Shown one piece after another: positions 2,951 through 60,379 of a stretch of DNA of 64,000 nucleotides. Numbering within the stretch: position 1 is the first letter of the stretch; every line of letters starts with the position of its first letter. The stretch is from positions 196,400 to 260,399 of the forward strand of contig SVNK01000001.1 in the NCBI GenBank assembly GCA_015066935.1, given 5' to 3'. The notes under the pieces were generated by a model. The model saw only the letters and a program-made list of their open reading frames with translations. It was not told the origin of the DNA and made no database searches. The translations under genes and the position numbers were made by a program. The stretch is from Ruminococcus sp. GTDB lineage: Bacteria > Bacillota > Clostridia > Oscillospirales > Ruminococcaceae.

Positions 2951-4615
2951 TCAAACGCCCTTTATAAGGTTATTTACCGCACTCACAAGCGCCTTTATCG
3001 ACGACATGATAATATCATTGTCGATACCTGTTCCCCAGAAGCTTCGTCCGTCGTCCGAAAGAACCTCCACGTAAGACACAGCCTTCGAACCTGAACCGAC
3101 TTCGAGTGCGTGTTCGGTATAGGTGTTGATGCTGTAATTTATGCCCGTGTATGAGCGTATTGCGTTGCTCACAGCGTCAAGACGTCCGTTGCCGCTGTCG
3201 GACGCAGCAGCCTTTCTGCCGTTGAAAACAAGCGAAACTGTTGCTTCTATGCCGTTGTTCTGGACGTAGTGTGTTCCCGTAACCTCAAGCGGAGAGGTGA
3301 TGTCCACGAAATGCGTTCTGAAAATATCGTAAACCTCGTCGGGGAGAAGCTCCTTGTGCTTGCGGTCGGAGACGCTCTTCACAAGGTATCCCACAACCTC
3401 GCTCATCTTCTTCGGGAGACTGTATCCGAAACGTGTCTCAAGAATATAGCCGATTCCACCCTTGCCCGACTGACTGTTGATGCGGATAACATCAGCTTCG
3501 TATTCTCTGCCGATGTCTGTCGGGTCGATGGGAAGATATGGGACTGTCCAGTGGGCGGTGTGTCCCTCGTCACGCCACTTCATTCCCTTTGCGATGGCGT
3601 CCTGATGAGAACCGCTGAATGCCGCAAATACAAGCTTTCCGCTGTATGGCTGACGCTCGTTGACAGTCATCCGTGTAACCTTCGTGTAAAGCTCGGCAAT
3701 CGACGGAATATCGCTGAAATCAAGCATCGGGTCGATACCCTGAGAGTACATATTCATGGCGATTGTGATAATGTCGGCATTACCTGTACGCTCACCGTTT
3801 CCGAAGAGAGTTCCCTCAACACGGTCGGCACCTGCAAGGAGTCCCATTTCCGTATCGGCAATCGCACATCCACGGTCGTTATGCGGATGAAGCGATACTA
3901 TCACGTTTTCACGGTATTTCAGGTTCTCGCACATGAACTCGACCTGATTTGCGTAGACGTGAGGCATCGAAAGCTGTACCGTAACGGGAAGATTTATGAT
4001 AACCTTGTCGTCGGCGGTCGGCTGCCACACGTCAAGCACGGCGTTGCAGACCTCCAGTGCAAATTCAGGTTCTGTACCCGTGAAGCTTTCGGGAGAGTAC
4101 TCAAAACGGAAGTTCCCCTCGTACTTTTCACGATATTCCTTGCAGAGCTTCGCACCTGCAACGGCGATGTCGATTATTTCCTGCTTGTTTTTGCGGAAAA
4201 CCTGTTCACGCTGAGCAACAGACGTTGAATTGTAAAGGTGGACCACTGCGTTTTTGCAGCCTCTCAGCGCCTCGAAGGTCTTTTCGATGATGTGCTCACG
4301 TGACTGCGTGAGAACCTGTATCGACACATCATCGGGAATGAGTCCCTGTTCGATAAGGGTGCGGCAGAAGTCGTATTCCGTTTCCGAAGCGGCAGGAAAT
4401 CCTATTTCAATCTCCTTGAAGCCGATTCTGACCAGCTCTGCGAAGAATTCAAGCTTTTCTCCGAGACTCATAGGCGTGATAAGTGCCTGATTGCCGTCTC
4501 TGAGGTCAACGCTGCACCATGCGGGAGCTTTTTCAATATAGGACTTTTTCATCCAGTTTCCCGAGGATTTCGGTGCTTCAAAGAATTGTCTTGTGTATTT
4601 CTGAATATTTTTCAT
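2951..4615 (-). CDS. leuA: 2-isopropylmalate synthase (long LeuA form)
   Basis: MKNIQKYTRQFFEAPKSSGNWMKKSYIEKAPAWCSVDLRDGNQALITPM; C-terminal regulatory domain. Start placed at 4615 because the upstream ORF extension reads through the T-box leader. Confidence 0.95.
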   Translation of the reverse strand: MKNIQKYTRQFFEAPKSSGNWMKKSYIEKAPAWCSVDLRDGNQALITPMSLGEKLEFFAELVRIGFKEIEIGFPAASETEYDFCRTLIEQGLIPDDVSIQVLTQSREHIIEKTFEALRGCKNAVVHLYNSTSVAQREQVFRKNKQEIIDIAVAGAKLCKEYREKYEGNFRFEYSPESFTGTEPEFALEVCNAVLDVWQPTADDKVIINLPVTVQLSMPHVYANQVEFMCENLKYRENVIVSLHPHNDRGCAIADTEMGLLAGADRVEGTLFGNGERTGNADIITIAMNMYSQGIDPMLDFSDIPSIAELYTKVTRMTVNERQPYSGKLVFAAFSGSHQDAIAKGMKWRDEGHTAHWTVPYLPIDPTDIGREYEADVIRINSQSGKGGIGYILETRFGYSLPKKMSEVVGYLVKSVSDRKHKELLPDEVYDIFRTHFVDITSPLEVTGTHYVQNNGIEATVSLVFNGRKAAASDSGNGRLDAVSNAIRSYTGINYSINTYTEHALEVGSGSKAVSYVEVLSDDGRSFWGTGIDNDIIMSSIKALVSAVNNLIKGV

Positions 4616-4639
4616 AGGTGTTACCTCCTTAAGCAGGCT

Positions 4640-4915
4640 CTGTGCATAGGCAATAAAAAAGCTCCTCCATGCACAGGCATGGAGGAGACGAAGCTTTGTG
4701 TATACTCCGTGGTACCACTCCTCTTGATGACATAAATCACCCACTCATCTGCGTCCTACTAACGCATATCTCTGTAACGGGAGAACCCGTTCAAGCCTGA
4801 TTATCCGCACTCCTGCGGTTTTCAGCCGACTGCTCCGGGATGAGCTATGGCCTGTTCCGATTTACTGCCTTTCACCAAACGGCAGCTCTCTGTGAAACTC
4901 GGGAGAGGTTTTATT
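4640..4915 (-). promoter_or_regulatory. T-box leader (probably tRNA-Leu responsive) of leuA
   Basis: Minus strand AGAGAGCTGCCG...GGTGAAAGGCAG, GAGTGGTACCACGGAGT (T-box) and terminator CTCCTCCATGCCTGTGCATGGAGGAGCTTTTTT. Candidate specifier CUC at 4842-4844. Confidence 0.9.
4653..4687 (-). terminator. T-box leader terminator
   Basis: CTCCTCCATGC/GCATGGAGGAG stem followed by T6. Confidence 0.85.
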
Positions 4916-5099
4916 TCCCTTCATCGCATTTAACGCTTTTATTATATTACTCTTTTTTGCCGTTGTCAAGTGCTGAAAGTGATTTTTGGTTATTTTCAAC
5001 AAAACTCCTCATAACAAAACAGCTGCAAAGGATATACCCTTACAGCCGCTTTGCGTACAGTGTTAAAGAGAAATAAAAAATAGGGAAGGTGGTATGTAA

Positions 5100-13368: not shown

Positions 13369-13736
13369 AAAAAAACACTCCCTGAGGGTAATGTCCGTAC
13401 AGAAGTATATACGTGACTTATTGAGGAAAACCCTTTTGAAAAAGGGTTCTCCCAACGGGAGCCTGTCCCCTCTGTCCTTCGGACATCTCCCCACACTGTG
13501 GGGAGTCATCCTCAAACTCCTTTCCTAAAACTTTCAGTATGAAATTTCAGCCAGACAGGGCACACCGAGAAATGTTTGAATTTCTTGTTTTTATGGTGTG
13601 TGCCCTGTATGGCTGAAATTTGTATTAAAAGTCTTTGGAAGGGGGTTCGGGGGAGAACCTTTCCTCAGAAAGGTTTCACCCGATAAATACATATATTGCT
13701 TCTATATGGTCATCATCCCTCAGGGAGTGTTTTTTT
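13369..13736. repeat. Large palindromic element, copy 1 (orientation A), with outer 20-bp terminal inverted repeats
   Basis: AAAAAAACACTCCCTGAGGG ... CCCTCAGGGAGTGTTTTTTT; core 13421-13690 shared with 25698, 28086 and 59920 copies. Confidence 0.9.
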
Positions 13737-21250: not shown

Positions 21251-21333
21251 ATCAGGGTATTGCCTTGCACTTTATAAATGCAAAGCGGTTTTTTGCCGCT
21301 TTTTTGTTTATGGACGCTTATTTCCACCCTGAT
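21251..21333 (+). ncRNA. Candidate structured 5' leader RNA
   Basis: ATCAGGGT/ACCCTGAT enclosing TTGCA..TGCAA and AGCGG..CCGCT hairpins, starting just after predicted TSS. Confidence 0.4.
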
Positions 21334-21418
21334 TTCTTGTATTCACCTTTCCCGTAACGGAATTGTATATATTTCTGAGCCGATTTCTTTCTGCGGCTCT
21401 TTCAAAGGAGTGATCCGG

Positions 21419-23047
21419 ATGATTTGCCCTCAGTGCGGAAACGATAACCCCTCAAAACTTAAATTCTGTGTAAAATGCGGCATGAACCTCGAAAATCCGT
21501 CCGAGGTCAACTATGAACAGGTCGATATGGGCGGCTACCACGCCGAGGAAGACTCCGATTCAGGTAAATTCAGCCTCGGAAGCGGTACGTTCACCATAAG
21601 CGATAACGCTCAGGTTTCAAATATGTCGTCAGACCTCTATACCGCTGAGGAACTTAACGATGACGACGAAGAATTCGATTTCAGCAGCTTCGATGAACCT
21701 TTCATCCCGAAGCTCGATACAGACAGATTGTCACTGCCGGGGGCGTCTTCAATGCGTCCTGCAGCAGGTGCTCCGCAGGTCGGCGGTATGCCTCAGCAGA
21801 ACATGACCGGTGCTCCACAGATGGGCGGTATGCCTCAGCAGAATATGGCAGGTGCTCCACAGATGGGCGGTATGCCTCAGCAGAATATGGCAGGTGCTCC
21901 ACAGATGAGTGGTATGCCTCAGCAGAATATGGCAGGTGCTCCGCAGATGGGTGGTATGCCTCAGCAGAACGGTATGCCATTCTACGGTCAGCCAATGATG
22001 TACCCTCAGCCCCAGATTGTCGGCTATGACCAGAACGGTATGCCTGTTTACGGTCAGCCAATGATGTACCCTCAGCCTCAGATTGTCGGCTATGACCAGA
22101 ACGGTATGCCTGTTTACGGTCAGCCTATGATGTACCCTCAGCCCCAGATTGTCGGCTACGACCAGAACGGTATGCCCATTTACGGTCAGCCTGCTATGTA
22201 CGCTCAGCCTCAGATCGTCGGCTACGACCAGAACGGTATGCCAATCTACGGTCAGCCTGCTATGTACGCTCAGCCTGCAATGCCGCCTCAGCCTGACCCT
22301 ATGTCTCATATGGGCGGTATGCCTCAGCAGCCTGCGGCAGGTGTCCCTCAGATGGGCGGCGTTCCGCAGATGAGTGGTATCCCTCAGATGAACAGTATCC
22401 CGCAGATGGGCGGTATTCCGCCTTACGGTGCTGCTCAGCAGTCTCCTCAGCAAAAGGACAGCGGCAGGGTCGATGTCCCCGACGATTTCTGGAAGTTCTT
22501 CGACGGCGGAAAATCACATAATCCCGAAAAAGATTCCGATAACGACTTCTTCGGCAGAACAGGAAATGAGTTCACAGACGCCTCAGCAAGAAAAAAGTCC
22601 GCTAATAAACACTATATGAGCGATACGCCCCTCGTGGACGCCGATAAGCTCAGTCCCAATACGTCTTCAAAATACAACAGCCTGCTTATGAGAAAAACAG
22701 ATGTTGTGAACGCCGACGACCTTGAAGCTCACGACGATACGAAAAAACAGGATATTATGGGCGTTACACGTGAGGTAGATGCCGAGCGTCTCAATTCCTA
22801 TGAGCACTTCAAAAGCCGCATAAGTATGGGCGATGCAGGTGAAGCCGACGCAGAGGACCTTGAAGCCTATGTCCCCGAACATCAGGAAGCTATCATGTCG
22901 CAGAATATAGATGCCGTCGAGGCTCTCCCCAAGAAGAAAACTACTTACAACGACGAAATCGACTCCATCGAGCTTCCCGAACATATGCAGGCTCGTAAAA
23001 CTACAGCCGTGGAAACTCCCGAAATACCGGGACTCCCCGAAATGTAA
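21419..23047 (+). CDS. Zinc-ribbon protein with Gly/Met/Pro/Gln tandem repeats
   Basis: MICPQCGNDNPSKLKFCVKCGMNL after RBS AAAGGAG; tandem MGGMPQQNMAGAPQ and YDQNGMPVYGQPMMYPQPQIVG units. Confidence 0.85.
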   Translation: MICPQCGNDNPSKLKFCVKCGMNLENPSEVNYEQVDMGGYHAEEDSDSGKFSLGSGTFTISDNAQVSNMSSDLYTAEELNDDDEEFDFSSFDEPFIPKLDTDRLSLPGASSMRPAAGAPQVGGMPQQNMTGAPQMGGMPQQNMAGAPQMGGMPQQNMAGAPQMSGMPQQNMAGAPQMGGMPQQNGMPFYGQPMMYPQPQIVGYDQNGMPVYGQPMMYPQPQIVGYDQNGMPVYGQPMMYPQPQIVGYDQNGMPIYGQPAMYAQPQIVGYDQNGMPIYGQPAMYAQPAMPPQPDPMSHMGGMPQQPAAGVPQMGGVPQMSGIPQMNSIPQMGGIPPYGAAQQSPQQKDSGRVDVPDDFWKFFDGGKSHNPEKDSDNDFFGRTGNEFTDASARKKSANKHYMSDTPLVDADKLSPNTSSKYNSLLMRKTDVVNADDLEAHDDTKKQDIMGVTREVDAERLNSYEHFKSRISMGDAGEADAEDLEAYVPEHQEAIMSQNIDAVEALPKKKTTYNDEIDSIELPEHMQARKTTAVETPEIPGLPEM

Positions 23048-24329: not shown

Positions 24330-25268
24330 ATGACAGGTACAGGTATTCAGTCAGACCCATATATCATTACGTCCGCTGAGGAACTCTACGAAATCAGTAC
24401 CCTCGGAGACGGCGACACCTATTTCAGACTCGGTTCGGATATCGACTTCAACGGTACTCCCTACGCCGAAAAATTCGAACCGATTCCGGTTAAATTCCGT
24501 GAACTCGACGGCAACGGTCACTGCATCAGAAATATTTACATCAATACGCTGTCTTCTGCGTCGGTTTTCAATGTCATCAGGAATTCAAACGGCGCTCAGA
24601 CTGCCATAAAAAATCTCACTCTCGAAAACGTCAGCATTATGGCGTCTTATGTGAACCTTTTCACAAGCGGTTCAGGCAGCAACGTGGTCAATCTTTACGG
24701 CTGCACCCTCCTGCTGGACCTCTCACAAAGTGTTGCAATCTCTTCAAATTCAAGCTACGGAAGCCTTATCTGCAATAACTACGTAACGGTGAACTACGAA
24801 CTCTGTACCGTAAGCATAAATGCTCTTATGAGAACTCCGTTTCCCATTATCAGCCGTGCGAACTTCTACAGAAGTCACCTCTGCCTCGACCTCGATATTA
24901 TCAGCGATATCAGTTCTTATGTGCAGTCGGTTGCCGTTTTCGACAACTCCAAACTCACCGACTCCTACCTCACAGGCAGTATCAGCTACCGTGACAGCGG
25001 CGACGTCAATTTCTTCCAGATTGCAAACTACCTCTGCGTCGCCCAGAATTTCTATATGGCAATCGAACTTGTGGGACGTTCCATGTTCTACTGTGATATG
25101 TCAACAAAAACAGACTGCTTCTTCGACAGCGAACTTATGAACGGTGCGGTCCACAACCAGTACAGCAGCTCAAACTGCAATAAGTTCCACGCTCTCACCA
25201 CCGCCCAGTGCAAGGACGCAGACTACCTCAATTCTATCGGATTTATCTGCGCAGGTGACTCGCCATGA
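24330..25268 (+). CDS. Tail-fibre/GLUG-like beta-repeat protein
   Basis: MTGTGIQSDPYIITSAEELYEISTLGDGDTYFRLGSDIDFNGT; RBS GAGGAGG; coupled to preceding ORF. Confidence 0.55.
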   Translation: MTGTGIQSDPYIITSAEELYEISTLGDGDTYFRLGSDIDFNGTPYAEKFEPIPVKFRELDGNGHCIRNIYINTLSSASVFNVIRNSNGAQTAIKNLTLENVSIMASYVNLFTSGSGSNVVNLYGCTLLLDLSQSVAISSNSSYGSLICNNYVTVNYELCTVSINALMRTPFPIISRANFYRSHLCLDLDIISDISSYVQSVAVFDNSKLTDSYLTGSISYRDSGDVNFFQIANYLCVAQNFYMAIELVGRSMFYCDMSTKTDCFFDSELMNGAVHNQYSSSNCNKFHALTTAQCKDADYLNSIGFICAGDSP

Positions 25269-25681
25269 GTATGTTCATAATCGAGGGAAATAATAACGGC
25301 TATCCCTGTATTCCCGAACTTACAAACAGCTTTGCCGTCATCCACAAGGCTCCCTTCTGGGACTTTTCTATGAAACTTTCGGATACCCTCAATAACGGCT
25401 ACCCCGTTATGATTCAGACTCCCGTCCCCGCAAGAACTTCCGATATGAAACCTGTCTTCCCCGATTTCTATATGCACTGCCTCGGCGAGGAATTTAACTG
25501 CGGCTATCCGTGTATACTTAAACTGGAGAATATCAGGCGTTCTGTCTTTTCGCACCTCTTCTTCAATAACCACCATGTCTCACGTCTTTTCTTCGGCTCT
25601 GAAGAACCTTCTGCCGCCTATTGCAACGGCCGCAAAGTCTACGGCAGAACCTATATACAGCATAAATCGCAGTTATCCTAG
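25265..25681 (+). CDS. Hypothetical protein, third gene of tail-like cassette
   Basis: ATGA overlap with preceding ORF; triplicated N-G-Y-P motif (NNNGYPCIPEL, LNNGYPVMIQT, FNCGYPCILKL). Confidence 0.55.
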   Translation: MSMFIIEGNNNGYPCIPELTNSFAVIHKAPFWDFSMKLSDTLNNGYPVMIQTPVPARTSDMKPVFPDFYMHCLGEEFNCGYPCILKLENIRRSVFSHLFFNNHHVSRLFFGSEEPSAAYCNGRKVYGRTYIQHKSQLS

Positions 25682-25697
25682 TACCACCAGACCTATC

Positions 25698-25903
25698 GGG
25701 GAAAACCTTTCTGAGGAAAGGTTCTTCCCCGAACCCCTTTCCAAAGACTTTTAATACAAATTTCAGTGAGACAGGGCACTTATCATACAAACTAAAAAAT
25801 TTCCAAGTATATCAGCGTGCCCTGTCTCACTGAAATTTCATACTGAAAGTTTTAGGGAGGGAGTTTGAGGGAGGACCCTTTTTCAAAAGGGTCTCCCTCA
25901 ATA
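25698..25903. repeat. Large palindromic element, copy 2 (orientation B)
   Basis: GGGGAAAACCTTTCTGAGGAAAGGTT...CAGTGAGACAGGGCAC...GTGCCCTGTCTCACTG...CCCTTTTTCAAAAGGG. Confidence 0.9.
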
Positions 25904-25991
25904 AGTTTTGATGATACTATAATAAACTCCGATTCGTGCGAAGGGTTATTTGTGCAAAATTCCGAAAATTGAGAAAAGTTTGTGAATGTAC

Positions 25992-28031: not shown

Positions 28032-28085
28032 TAAGTAAAACTAAACCCGTTTAACTGTAACGTTTTAAAGGAGTTTTACATGCAT

Positions 28086-28300
28086 TATTGAGGAAAACCC
28101 TTTTGAAAAAGGGTTATTCCTCAAACTCCTTTCCTAAAACTTTCAGTATGAAATTTCAGCCCCATAGGGTGCATCCAGTAATTTCTGAACTCCGTGTTCA
28201 TCTGGAATATGCACCCTATGGGGCTGAAATTTGTATTAAAAGTCTTTGGAAGGGGGTTCGGGGGAGAACCTTTCCTCAGAAAGGTTTCACCCGATAAATA
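28086..28300. repeat. Large palindromic element, copy 3 (orientation A)
   Basis: TTATTGAGGAAAACCCTTTTGAAAAAGGGTT...CAGCCCCATAGGGTGCAT...ATGCACCCTATGGGGCTG...CCTTTCCTCAGAAAGG. Confidence 0.92.
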
Positions 28301-28345
28301 CGTATAAAGTTCCTGTAAAAGCATTACAGTAAGACGGGTTTGGAT

Positions 28346-47363: not shown

Positions 47364-47933
47364 ATGAACGAAAATTACAGACTCGTGAAGGATTACAGCA
47401 TCCCTCTTGACATCTTCAGTGACGCTTACAGAAGCTATCAGAAAAAATATATATACCCGAAAAATTACATTTTTATGGCGATTTTCGGTATTCTGGCAAT
47501 CGACTTCATAGTCGCCGCAGTTAAGGACCCTTCGAATTTGTTTGCTTACCTGCTTATCATGGTGTGTCTTGCGATGATGTTCAGGGAGTGGTTCAATCCG
47601 AGGAAAATCCGCAACAATATCATTGATACCGTCAAAGAGCTTGGAAATCCCGTGTACAGACTCGGTATTGCCGACGATTATATCGAGATTTCAACAATCA
47701 GCGACGGCGGTGTTGATAACTCTGCTTCCGACGCTTCCGCCGATGAGCTTGATTATAACGAGCAGTACGACCCCCTGCCCGAAAAAACAACGCTCGTCAT
47801 TAACGACCAGATTAAAACTCTTGAATATGACAGGTATTTTCTGCTTCTCAACGGCAGAATGTCGTTCTATATAATCCCGAAGGAAGGCTTTACGGACAGT
47901 GAAATGGACGTTATCCGCAGCATCAACCGCTGA
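47364..47933 (+). CDS. Hypothetical membrane protein (YcxB-like C-terminus suspected)
   Basis: Two TM helices, C-terminal YFLLLNGRMSFYIIPKEGF. Confidence 0.65.
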   Translation: MNENYRLVKDYSIPLDIFSDAYRSYQKKYIYPKNYIFMAIFGILAIDFIVAAVKDPSNLFAYLLIMVCLAMMFREWFNPRKIRNNIIDTVKELGNPVYRLGIADDYIEISTISDGGVDNSASDASADELDYNEQYDPLPEKTTLVINDQIKTLEYDRYFLLLNGRMSFYIIPKEGFTDSEMDVIRSINR

Positions 47934-47934
47934 T

Positions 47935-48250
47935 TTATAATGCGTAATTATATAATTGGGATACGGACATATTCACCGTGTAGGGACGACCAATGGTCGT
48001 CCGCAATCTGAAAATCTTCCGCAATAATTGGAAATCCATATAATGCGGAATTAATTATCGGGACGTTTCGGATTATTTACGGGCGAACACAGTTCGCCCC
48101 TACAGTTTCACGACGTATTCACCATGTAGGGACGACCAATGGTCGTCCGCAATCTGAAAATCTTCCGCAAAAATTGGAAATCCATATAATGCGGAATTAT
48201 ATAATTGGGATACGGACATATTGTAGGGGACGGCGTCCCCGACGTCCCGA
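47935..48250. repeat. Tandem array A of ~146-bp hairpin units
   Basis: GTAGGGACGACCAATGGTCGTCC at 47980 and 48126 (146-bp spacing), interleaved GGGCGAACACAGTTCGCCC. Confidence 0.9.
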
Positions 48251-48316
48251 TTATAAAAATGCTGATTTGTCCATAAAATTATAATTCATAATTCGAAAAG
48301 CAGGAGGTAAGAAATT

Positions 48317-53461: not shown

Positions 53462-54120
53462 TGCGTAATGCGTAATGCGGAATTGTATAATCGTGATACG
53501 GACATATTGTAGGGGACGGCGTCCCCGACGTCCCGTAAAATTCATGTATTGTGCAATATATATGCGGACGCCCCTACAATTTCACGACGTATTCACCGTG
53601 TAGGGACGACCATTGGTCGTCCGCAATCTGAAAATCTTCCGCAAAAATTTGAAATTCATATAATGTGGAATTAATTATCGGGACGTTTCGGATTATTCAC
53701 GGGCGAACACAGTTCGCCCCTACAATTTCACGACGTATTCACCGTGTAGGGACGACCATTGGTCGTCCGCAATCTGAAAACCTTCCGCAAAAATTGGAAA
53801 TCCATATAATGCGTATTAATTATCGGGACGTTTCGGATTATTCACGGGCGAACACAGTTCGCCCCTACAATTTCACGATGTATTCACCGTGTAGGGACGA
53901 CCAATGGTCGTCCGCAATCTGGAAACCTACCGCAAAAATTGGAAATCCATATAATGCGTATTAATTATCGGGACGTTTCGGATTATTCACGGGCGAACAC
54001 AGTTCGCCCCTACAACTTCACGACGTATTCACCGTGTAGGGACGACCATTGGTCGTCCGCAATCTGGAAATCTTCCGCAATAATTGGAAATCCATATAAT
54101 GCGGAATTGTATAATCGTGA
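53462..54120. repeat. Tandem array B of ~146-bp hairpin units (4 units)
   Basis: GTAGGGACGACCATTGGTCGTCC at 53600, 53746, 53891, 54036; interleaved GGGCGAACACAGTTCGCCCC. Confidence 0.93.
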
Positions 54121-54188
54121 CACCAAGCACAACGTTTACTGTTAGTATAAAACAATCCGATTATACCGTAAAATAAGGAAAAATCCTA

Positions 54189-56454: not shown

Positions 56455-57030
56455 ATATAATGCGGAATTCGTAATTGATAATCGTGATACGGACATATTG
56501 TAGGGGACGGCGTCCCCGACGTCCCGTAAAATTCATGTATTGTGCGATATATATGCGGACGCTCCTACAATTTCACGACGTATTCACCATGTAGGGACGA
56601 CCAATGGTCGTCCGCAATCTGAAAATCTTCCGCAAAAATTGGAAATCCATATAATGCGAAATTAATTATCGGGACGTTTCGGATTATTCACGGGCGAACA
56701 CAGTTCGCCCCTACAACTTCACGACGTATTCACCGTGTAGGGACGACCATTGGTCGTCCGCAATCTGGAAATCTTCCGCAATAATTGGAAATCCATATAA
56801 TGCGAAATTAATTATCGGGACGTTTCGGATTATTCACGGGCGAACACAGTTCGCCCCTACAAATTCACGATATATTCACCGTGTAGGGACGACCATTGGT
56901 CGTCCGCAATCTGGAAATCTTCCGCAAAAATTGGAAATCCATATAATGCGGAATTAATTATCGGGACGTCCCGTAAAATTCATGTATTGTGCAATATATA
57001 TGCGGACGCCCACTGGGCGTCCCTACATGG
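56455..57030. repeat. Tandem array C of ~146-bp hairpin units (3 units)
   Basis: GTAGGGACGACC..GGTCGTCC at 56591, 56737, 56883; final GGACGCCCACTGGGCGTCC variant hairpin. Confidence 0.93.
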
Positions 57031-59876: not shown

Positions 59877-59919
59877 TAATAGAGGATTTGTTTATACAGA
59901 GACATTTACAGGTGTTTTT

Positions 59920-60176
59920 GGGGGAAACCTTTCTGAGGAAAGGTTCTCCCCCAAGCCCCCTTCCAAAGACTTTTAATACAAATTTCAGCCCCATAGGGTG
60001 CGTCCAAAAAAAGTTTGAACATCATGTTCATCCGGAAACGCACCCTATGGGGCTGAAATTTCATACTGAAAGTTTTAGGAAAGGAGTTTGAGGATGACTC
60101 CCCACAGTGTGGGGAGATGTCCGAAGGACAGAGGGGACAGGCTCCCGTTGGGAGAACCCTTTTTCAAAAGGGTTTC
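59920..60176. repeat. Large palindromic element, copy 4 (orientation B)
   Basis: CAGCCCCATAGGGTGCGT...ACGCACCCTATGGGGCTG core; includes TGTCCGAAGGACA submodule. Confidence 0.92.
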
Positions 60177-60184
60177 AGACTGTA

Positions 60185-60310
60185 GAAAAAGCCGTATATT
60201 AACGGGACGTCGAGGACGCCGTCCCCTACAGATGGCTATTTTACGTATTATAAATGTAGGGGCGAACTGTGTTCGCCCGAAAAAAATATGTTTATCGACA
60301 CGCTGAACCC
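60185..60310. repeat. Composite GTAGGG-type element, inverted relative to 19488-19770
   Basis: AACGGGACGTCGAGGACGCCGTCCCCTACAGATGGCTATTTTACGTATTATAAATGTAGGGGCGAACTGTGTTCGCCCG...GTTTATCGACACGCTGA. Confidence 0.85.
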
Positions 60311-60379
60311 TTTTTCAAAAGGTTCTTCCTCAAGAAGACTTGCAAAAGTCTGCAAAAACAAATTCTTTATTATAATTCA

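Follow-up and report, generated by a model that had tools for sequence, protein, structure and literature searches.

The 64,000-nucleotide stretch of DNA analyzed here (the window) carries four copies of a large palindromic element that we regard, with fair confidence, as a non-autonomous, REPIN/MITE-like mobile family inserting into the loops of terminator hairpins. Re-reading of the sequence and inspection of the inverted-repeat table recovered all four copies at the positions given by a first-pass annotation, together with the end hairpins, arms and central stems that it had described. The limits of the element had been drawn too narrowly, however, as the end hairpins are themselves enclosed by an inverted layer of about 40 bp on each side. 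Likewise, the perfect 20-bp terminal inverted repeat listed for copy 1 does pair, but it is not an extra of this copy: it corresponds to a copy-specific, terminator-like stem of which most copies possess their own version. The features are as follows; those of copy 1 for which no other basis is named were read directly from the sequence.

13369–13388, + strand: copy 1, left half of the putative host terminator stem, AAAAAAACACTCCCTGAGGG; perfect pairing with 13717–13736 (L001, score 20)
13389–13426, + strand: copy 1, inner part of basal stem P1, A side, TAATGTCCGTACAGAAGTATATACG..TTATTGAGG
13427–13448, + strand: copy 1, hairpin A, AAACCCTTTTGAAAAAGGGTT
13449–13510, + strand: copy 1, extra module, CTCCCAACGGGAG..CTGTGGGGAGTCATC; shared with copy 4, and located beside hairpin B in L030 and L063 (inverted-repeat table and copy comparison)
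13511–13550, + strand: copy 1, conserved arm A, TCAAACTCCTTTCCTAAAACTTTCAGTATGAAATTTCAG (sequence and copy comparison)
13548–13615, + strand: copy 1, core, variable but paired (pairing tests across copies)
13613–13650, + strand: copy 1, conserved arm B, CTGAAATTTGTATTAAAAGTCTTTGGAAGGGGGTTCGG (sequence and copy comparison)
13650–13681, + strand: copy 1, hairpin B, AACCTTTCCTCAGAAAGGTT with an outer G/C stem (sequence and copy comparison)
13682–13716, + strand: copy 1, inner part of P1, B side
13717–13736, + strand: copy 1, right half of the putative host terminator stem with T tract, CCCTCAGGGAGTGTTTTTTT (stem-partner alignment)
25664–25945 (outer limits approximate), - strand: copy 2 (L016) with P1 stem; core at 25764–25832
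28043–28342, + strand: copy 3 (L009) with putative terminator stem AAACCCGT..ACGGGTTT; core at 28157–28226
59878–60176, - strand: copy 4, with hairpin B, arms, core (59986–60055), extra module (60092–60155) and hairpin A
60305–60335, - strand: copy 4, a further A-hairpin sequence, AACCCTTTTTCAAAAGGTTCTTCCTCAA, set apart from the copy by other repeats (inverted-repeat table)

Copy 2 is positioned between an open reading frame (25265–25681) and the gene upstream of groEL, which is probably groES, and copy 3 lies between the convergent groEL and serS genes. Copy 4 is interrupted by a block of other palindromic repeats (60177–60304) that separates hairpin A from the second A-hairpin sequence. A module of about 60 bp has been added beside hairpin A in copies 1 and 4; across the family, five copies have it next to hairpin A and two others have it next to hairpin B. 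As the annotation had stated, no transposase is nearby: a scan of window proteins that covered part of the open reading frames detected none. The window also contains a T-box leader (4681–4933, - strand) that scores above the Rfam threshold upstream of an open reading frame (2951–4744, - strand), and an open reading frame (21278–23047) with in-frame tandem repeats of 42, 66, and 18 bp at 21764–22421.

From the outside inward, the element begins with a copy-specific stem, one side of which carries an A tract and the other a T tract; this is followed by the inverted P1 layer of about 40 bp, hairpins A and B, the conserved arms, a core stem of 18–20 bp, and an interior of about 30 nt. The core unit measures about 190 bp, and about 300 bp when the basal stem is included. 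Its predicted fold is a four-way junction, and the fold of one copy with its stem deviated strongly from that of shuffled sequence (z = -12.8 as DNA and -14.1 as RNA). The end hairpins and arms are near-invariant between copies and strongly conserved across genera, while core and P1 change freely in sequence with their pairing kept. P1 is common to most copies in the genus and is replaced in some copies of genome G019 and in other genera. A conserved junction with covarying stems resembles what is seen in RNA families, and the RNA fold is very stable; the element might hence be read as a functional structured RNA, a 3'-UTR or two-way terminator domain kept in each species for termination or mRNA stability, with the conserved junction and covarying outer helices reflecting selection on RNA. 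Against this reading speaks the comparison with Rfam 15, in which no family reached its gathering score on the element and matches were at chance level only.

The pattern of variation in the core bears on the same question. The claim that the central stems differ between copies yet stay paired holds across 33 copies, in which most variable core pairs are altered on both sides. Pair 7 is G-C in 14 copies, C-G in 13, T-A in four, and mismatched in two; pair 9 is C-G in nine, T-A in 23, and A-T in one; pair 14 is C-G in eight and T-A in 25; and pair 15 is A-T in nine and G-C in 24. Half-compensated intermediates are rare among these copies, and the paired changes include swaps from C-G to G-C, for which two transversions are required. 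Pairs of the G-U type are equally distributed over the two strands (76/76, 25/25, and 18/20 in the 33 copies), and a test of the core pairs for RNA-strand polarity showed none, a result at odds with a structured RNA. The core interior is found in one orientation in 16 of the 31 assignable copies and in the other in 15, with both orientations seen in both core subfamilies. At secA, the sole comparable site at which the same type of element is common to G019 and G357, the two elements occupy the same place and their cores differ by paired changes (GTGTATC..GATACAC versus GCGTATC..GATACGC, and TGGGAC..GTCCCA versus TAGGAC..GTCCTA). Since half-compensated pairs are rare, G-U pairs show no strand bias, and 15 of the 31 assignable copies have a flipped interior, the compensatory changes point to templating between the arms at the level of the DNA more than to RNA selection. 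Of the causes proposed in the first-pass annotation, namely selection on folded DNA or RNA, or hairpin templating, DNA-level templating thus agrees with the pattern, whereas selection on one RNA strand fits less well. The conserved arms are asymmetric in a fixed way, which implies that they either escape such correction or are under selection. A more general caution follows if this is true: covarying base pairs in dispersed palindromes can have their origin at the DNA level and, taken alone, are no evidence that an RNA has a function.

In most copies, the element caps a copy-specific stem resembling a two-way intrinsic terminator. A duplex-energy swap test of the basal stems was blunted by base composition, and an alignment test was used instead; by this measure, the flanking stems pair with their own partner far better than with those of other copies (z of about 13), a signal that is gone beyond position -78. 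Exactly at the stem base there is an A tract (A fraction of 0.54 versus 0.28) and next to it a G+C-rich stretch, the order found in two-way terminators. The features of intrinsic terminators at gene 3' ends, a G+C-containing stem and then a T tract, are present at the stem base of most copies, which, judged by its sequence, looks like an intrinsic terminator. The neighboring genes are convergent in 77, co-directional in 62, and divergent in four of 143 cases, counts that are approximate because the choice of open reading frames was automatic and some palindromes entered the tally in both orientations. A position at gene 3' ends and a terminator-like base would suit a structured RNA as well. 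Some stems depart from this picture: several G019 copies possess a basal stem of up to 35–40 bp that is copy-specific throughout and longer than an ordinary terminator, and the stem in G179 is again different and partly common among copies.

Empty and filled sites with a recognizably common terminator stem are found at two places, secA and ptsH, and at both of them the element is located within the terminator. At ptsH, the genome of the window (G000) reads AAGGATACATTCATTAGG[element]CCTTATAAATGTATCCTT, with a homologous stem flanking the element. Genomes G018, G345, and G354 possess an uninterrupted AAAAGGGATAYGTTC...GAATGTATCCC terminator at this position, the halves of the uninterrupted stem of the relatives being AAGGGATAYGTTC and GAATGTATCCC, and G020 has a similar terminator and no element. 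At secA, where three of 30 loci contain the element, G000 reads CAGGCGGATG..[element]..CGTCTGCCTG and G011 has a plain CAGGCGGATATTACTTCCGCCTG, whose stem (CAGGCGGA/TCCGCCTG) corresponds to the base of the G000 stem; similar plain terminators are present in others. Downstream of secA in G357 (contig C62, L316), two GTAGGGG-type palindromes interrupt an A hairpin, so that one repeat family is nested within another. No target-site duplication was recognized at secA or ptsH, where relatives rather than empty sites of the same strain were compared and the flanks are inverted, not direct. The element downstream of groEL is absent from the 29 relatives examined, but neighbors and terminators differ there, which is why this site was set aside as an empty-site comparison.

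Insertion sites mostly differ between species. The element is present at uvrA and at glyS in G000 as well as in G011, but in opposite orientations, and orientation is therefore not inherited together with the site. Sites that vary by species and in which a plain terminator often stands alone, and orientations that differ at common sites, are hard to reconcile with an RNA kept for its function, and we consider a structured RNA rather unlikely. A second alternative is a classical MITE derived from a DDE insertion sequence by internal deletion, in which P1 would represent the terminal inverted repeats and the preference for terminators would stem solely from purifying selection against other sites. 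The terminal inverted layer of about 40 bp (TAAGGG/TAACAG..), the lack of an open reading frame, the many copies, and their intergenic position are all as expected for such an element, but it is the inner hairpins that are conserved, while the sequence of P1 is not conserved between genera or in some copies. Moreover, direct repeats were not seen, and selection alone leaves the placement within a terminator hairpin unexplained, which makes a classical MITE an improbable account.

An intergenic element in which a variable spacer separates two end hairpins in inverted orientation might also be a REPIN mobilized by a RAYT (REP-associated tyrosine transposase), and the first-pass annotation had proposed a search for a RAYT-like or other transposase. 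G000 does contain one RAYT-like open reading frame, the sole Y1-like one, which encodes 206 amino acids on the same contig as the window (L266:2056–2676, corresponding to G000:C7:362055–362675) and lies about 2 kb from one copy of the element. However, its coding sequence holds two perfect in-frame GGGCGAACnnnGTTCGCCC palindromes (GGGCGAAC..GTTCGCCC), translated as GANCVRP and GRTQFAP. Because of these two copies and the abundance of this palindrome elsewhere in the window, the enzyme probably serves the GGGCGAACnnnGTTCGCCC repeat family and not the element. The hairpins of the element are flanked by TTATTGAGG and TTATCGGG and lack the GTAG/GGAG-type tetranucleotide. Furthermore, no match to PF01797 (Y1) was found in the copy-rich genomes G007, G008, G009, G011, G019, and G020; G008 and G009 are 99% complete and have 12 and 28 element matches, respectively. 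A RAYT as partner is thus not supported by these data, and we judge mobilization by a RAYT very improbable. An IS200/IS605-type Y1 transposase acting in trans likewise finds no support in G008 and G009, which carry the element and no PF01797 match. Among the loci examined, there was no autonomous version with single arms and an open reading frame between distant arms. Tandem arrays with a period of 145–146 bp surround gyrA in the window (47867–48255, 53473–54123, and 56464–57011); their units contain palindromes, among them GTAGGGACGACCAATGGTCGTCC and GGGCGAACACAGTTCGCCC, and they are likely REP-type repeats.

A DNA search of the 2.1-Mb genome of the window (18 contigs; a relative of Ruminococcus flavefaciens) yielded about 33 full copies, including the four of the window, in addition to short or fragmentary ones (L064 and L065). 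L064 (G000:C2) is a deletion derivative that has retained the basal stem and hairpin B and still lies within a terminator-like stem. Matches were present in 16 of the 40 genomes searched (G000 and relatives), every one of the same genus, and a scan with the conserved-arm pattern retrieved R. flavefaciens FD-1, YRD2003, XPD3002, ND2009, SAb67, and Y1 as well as Ruminococcus MAGs. Many other Ruminococcus species have tens of copies, some copies occur in related genera, and almost none beyond the family: a class-level search gave clear matches in two further genera, both of the same family, and when 399 genomes of the phylum were searched with a half-element model, four matched, two only weakly. 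The two weak matches, both in distant genomes, were not counted as members: L345 has a lone hairpin that looks unrelated, and L346 (G393:C66) has a distinct repeat that resembles the element, GAACCTTTTCAAAGGTTCG..GGGGAACCTTTTTCAAGAAAAAAGGTTCCCC, and may point to a wider superfamily. Similar 'AAAAGTTTTTGG..GGGG hairpin' repeats presumably exist in other gut bacteria. Phage and plasmid collections gave no match to the element and viral contigs only two, and an origin from phages or plasmids was rejected on these grounds.

Taken together, we favor a mobile palindrome that would fold into a four-way junction and whose targets would be the loops of intrinsic-terminator hairpins already present at gene 3' ends, entered in either orientation. 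The terminator stem would survive as the base of the stem of the element, and insertion would for this reason probably do little harm. Transposition, recognition of folded DNA, and the enzyme responsible are what we infer from these patterns: an enzyme supplied in trans may recognize the end hairpins and arms, which is the probable reason for their conservation. The core would need only to remain palindromic, with changes copied from arm to arm in the DNA through strand switching or templated repair, a process in the hairpin that could also flip the core interior. The lack of a gene-carrying version among the loci examined, of an identified mobilizing enzyme, and of a recognized duplication weighs against such a mobile palindrome, as do the over-long G019 stems, the different G179 stem, and the fact that empty and filled states have a recognizably common stem at only two sites. 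More tentatively, and a little short of an even chance in our estimate, the element may represent a novel transposition system that operates on folded DNA, with a junction recognized through its arms, any terminator loop as target, and a core renewed by strand switching. If true, terminators would constitute both a safe harbor and a structural target for mobile DNA, the tolerance of a gut genus for dozens of large palindromes would be explained, and the search for a structure-guided transposase would become concrete.

No description of the element was located in the open-access literature searched, and none was found there of nesting in terminator hairpins of varied sequence with the stems preserved. 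ERIC and Correia-type MITEs are short, palindromic, geneless intergenic elements; unlike the family described here, they are not known to possess a four-way junction with a paired, hypervariable core, and we know of no report of terminator nesting for them. REPINs have a highly diverse spacer bordered by two conserved, inverted ends that form hairpins, and they are non-autonomous, dispersed, intergenic, and able to fold as single strands (PMC8049555). The element shares with REPINs and BIMEs the inverted hairpin-forming ends and the variable spacer but differs in the unrelated sequence of its ends, the lack of a GTAG-type motif, its longer arms, its location inside terminator stems, and the absence of a linked RAYT. 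Insertion into palindromic units, as hairpin DNA, is known from IS1397 and ISKpn1 (IS3 family) and from IS621 (IS110) (PMC1525189); those elements move autonomously and are directed at a single repeat family (REP), whereas the element would target varied terminator hairpins and carries no transposase. The pneumococcal BOX, RUP, and SPRITE repeats are small, dispersed, structured Firmicute repeats, some of them terminator-like, that insert into one another, and SPRITE is enriched near gene 3' ends (PMC3049150, PMC10969869). Their sequences are unrelated to that of the element as far as is known, and while SPRITE is itself terminator-like, the element sits within the terminator of its host.
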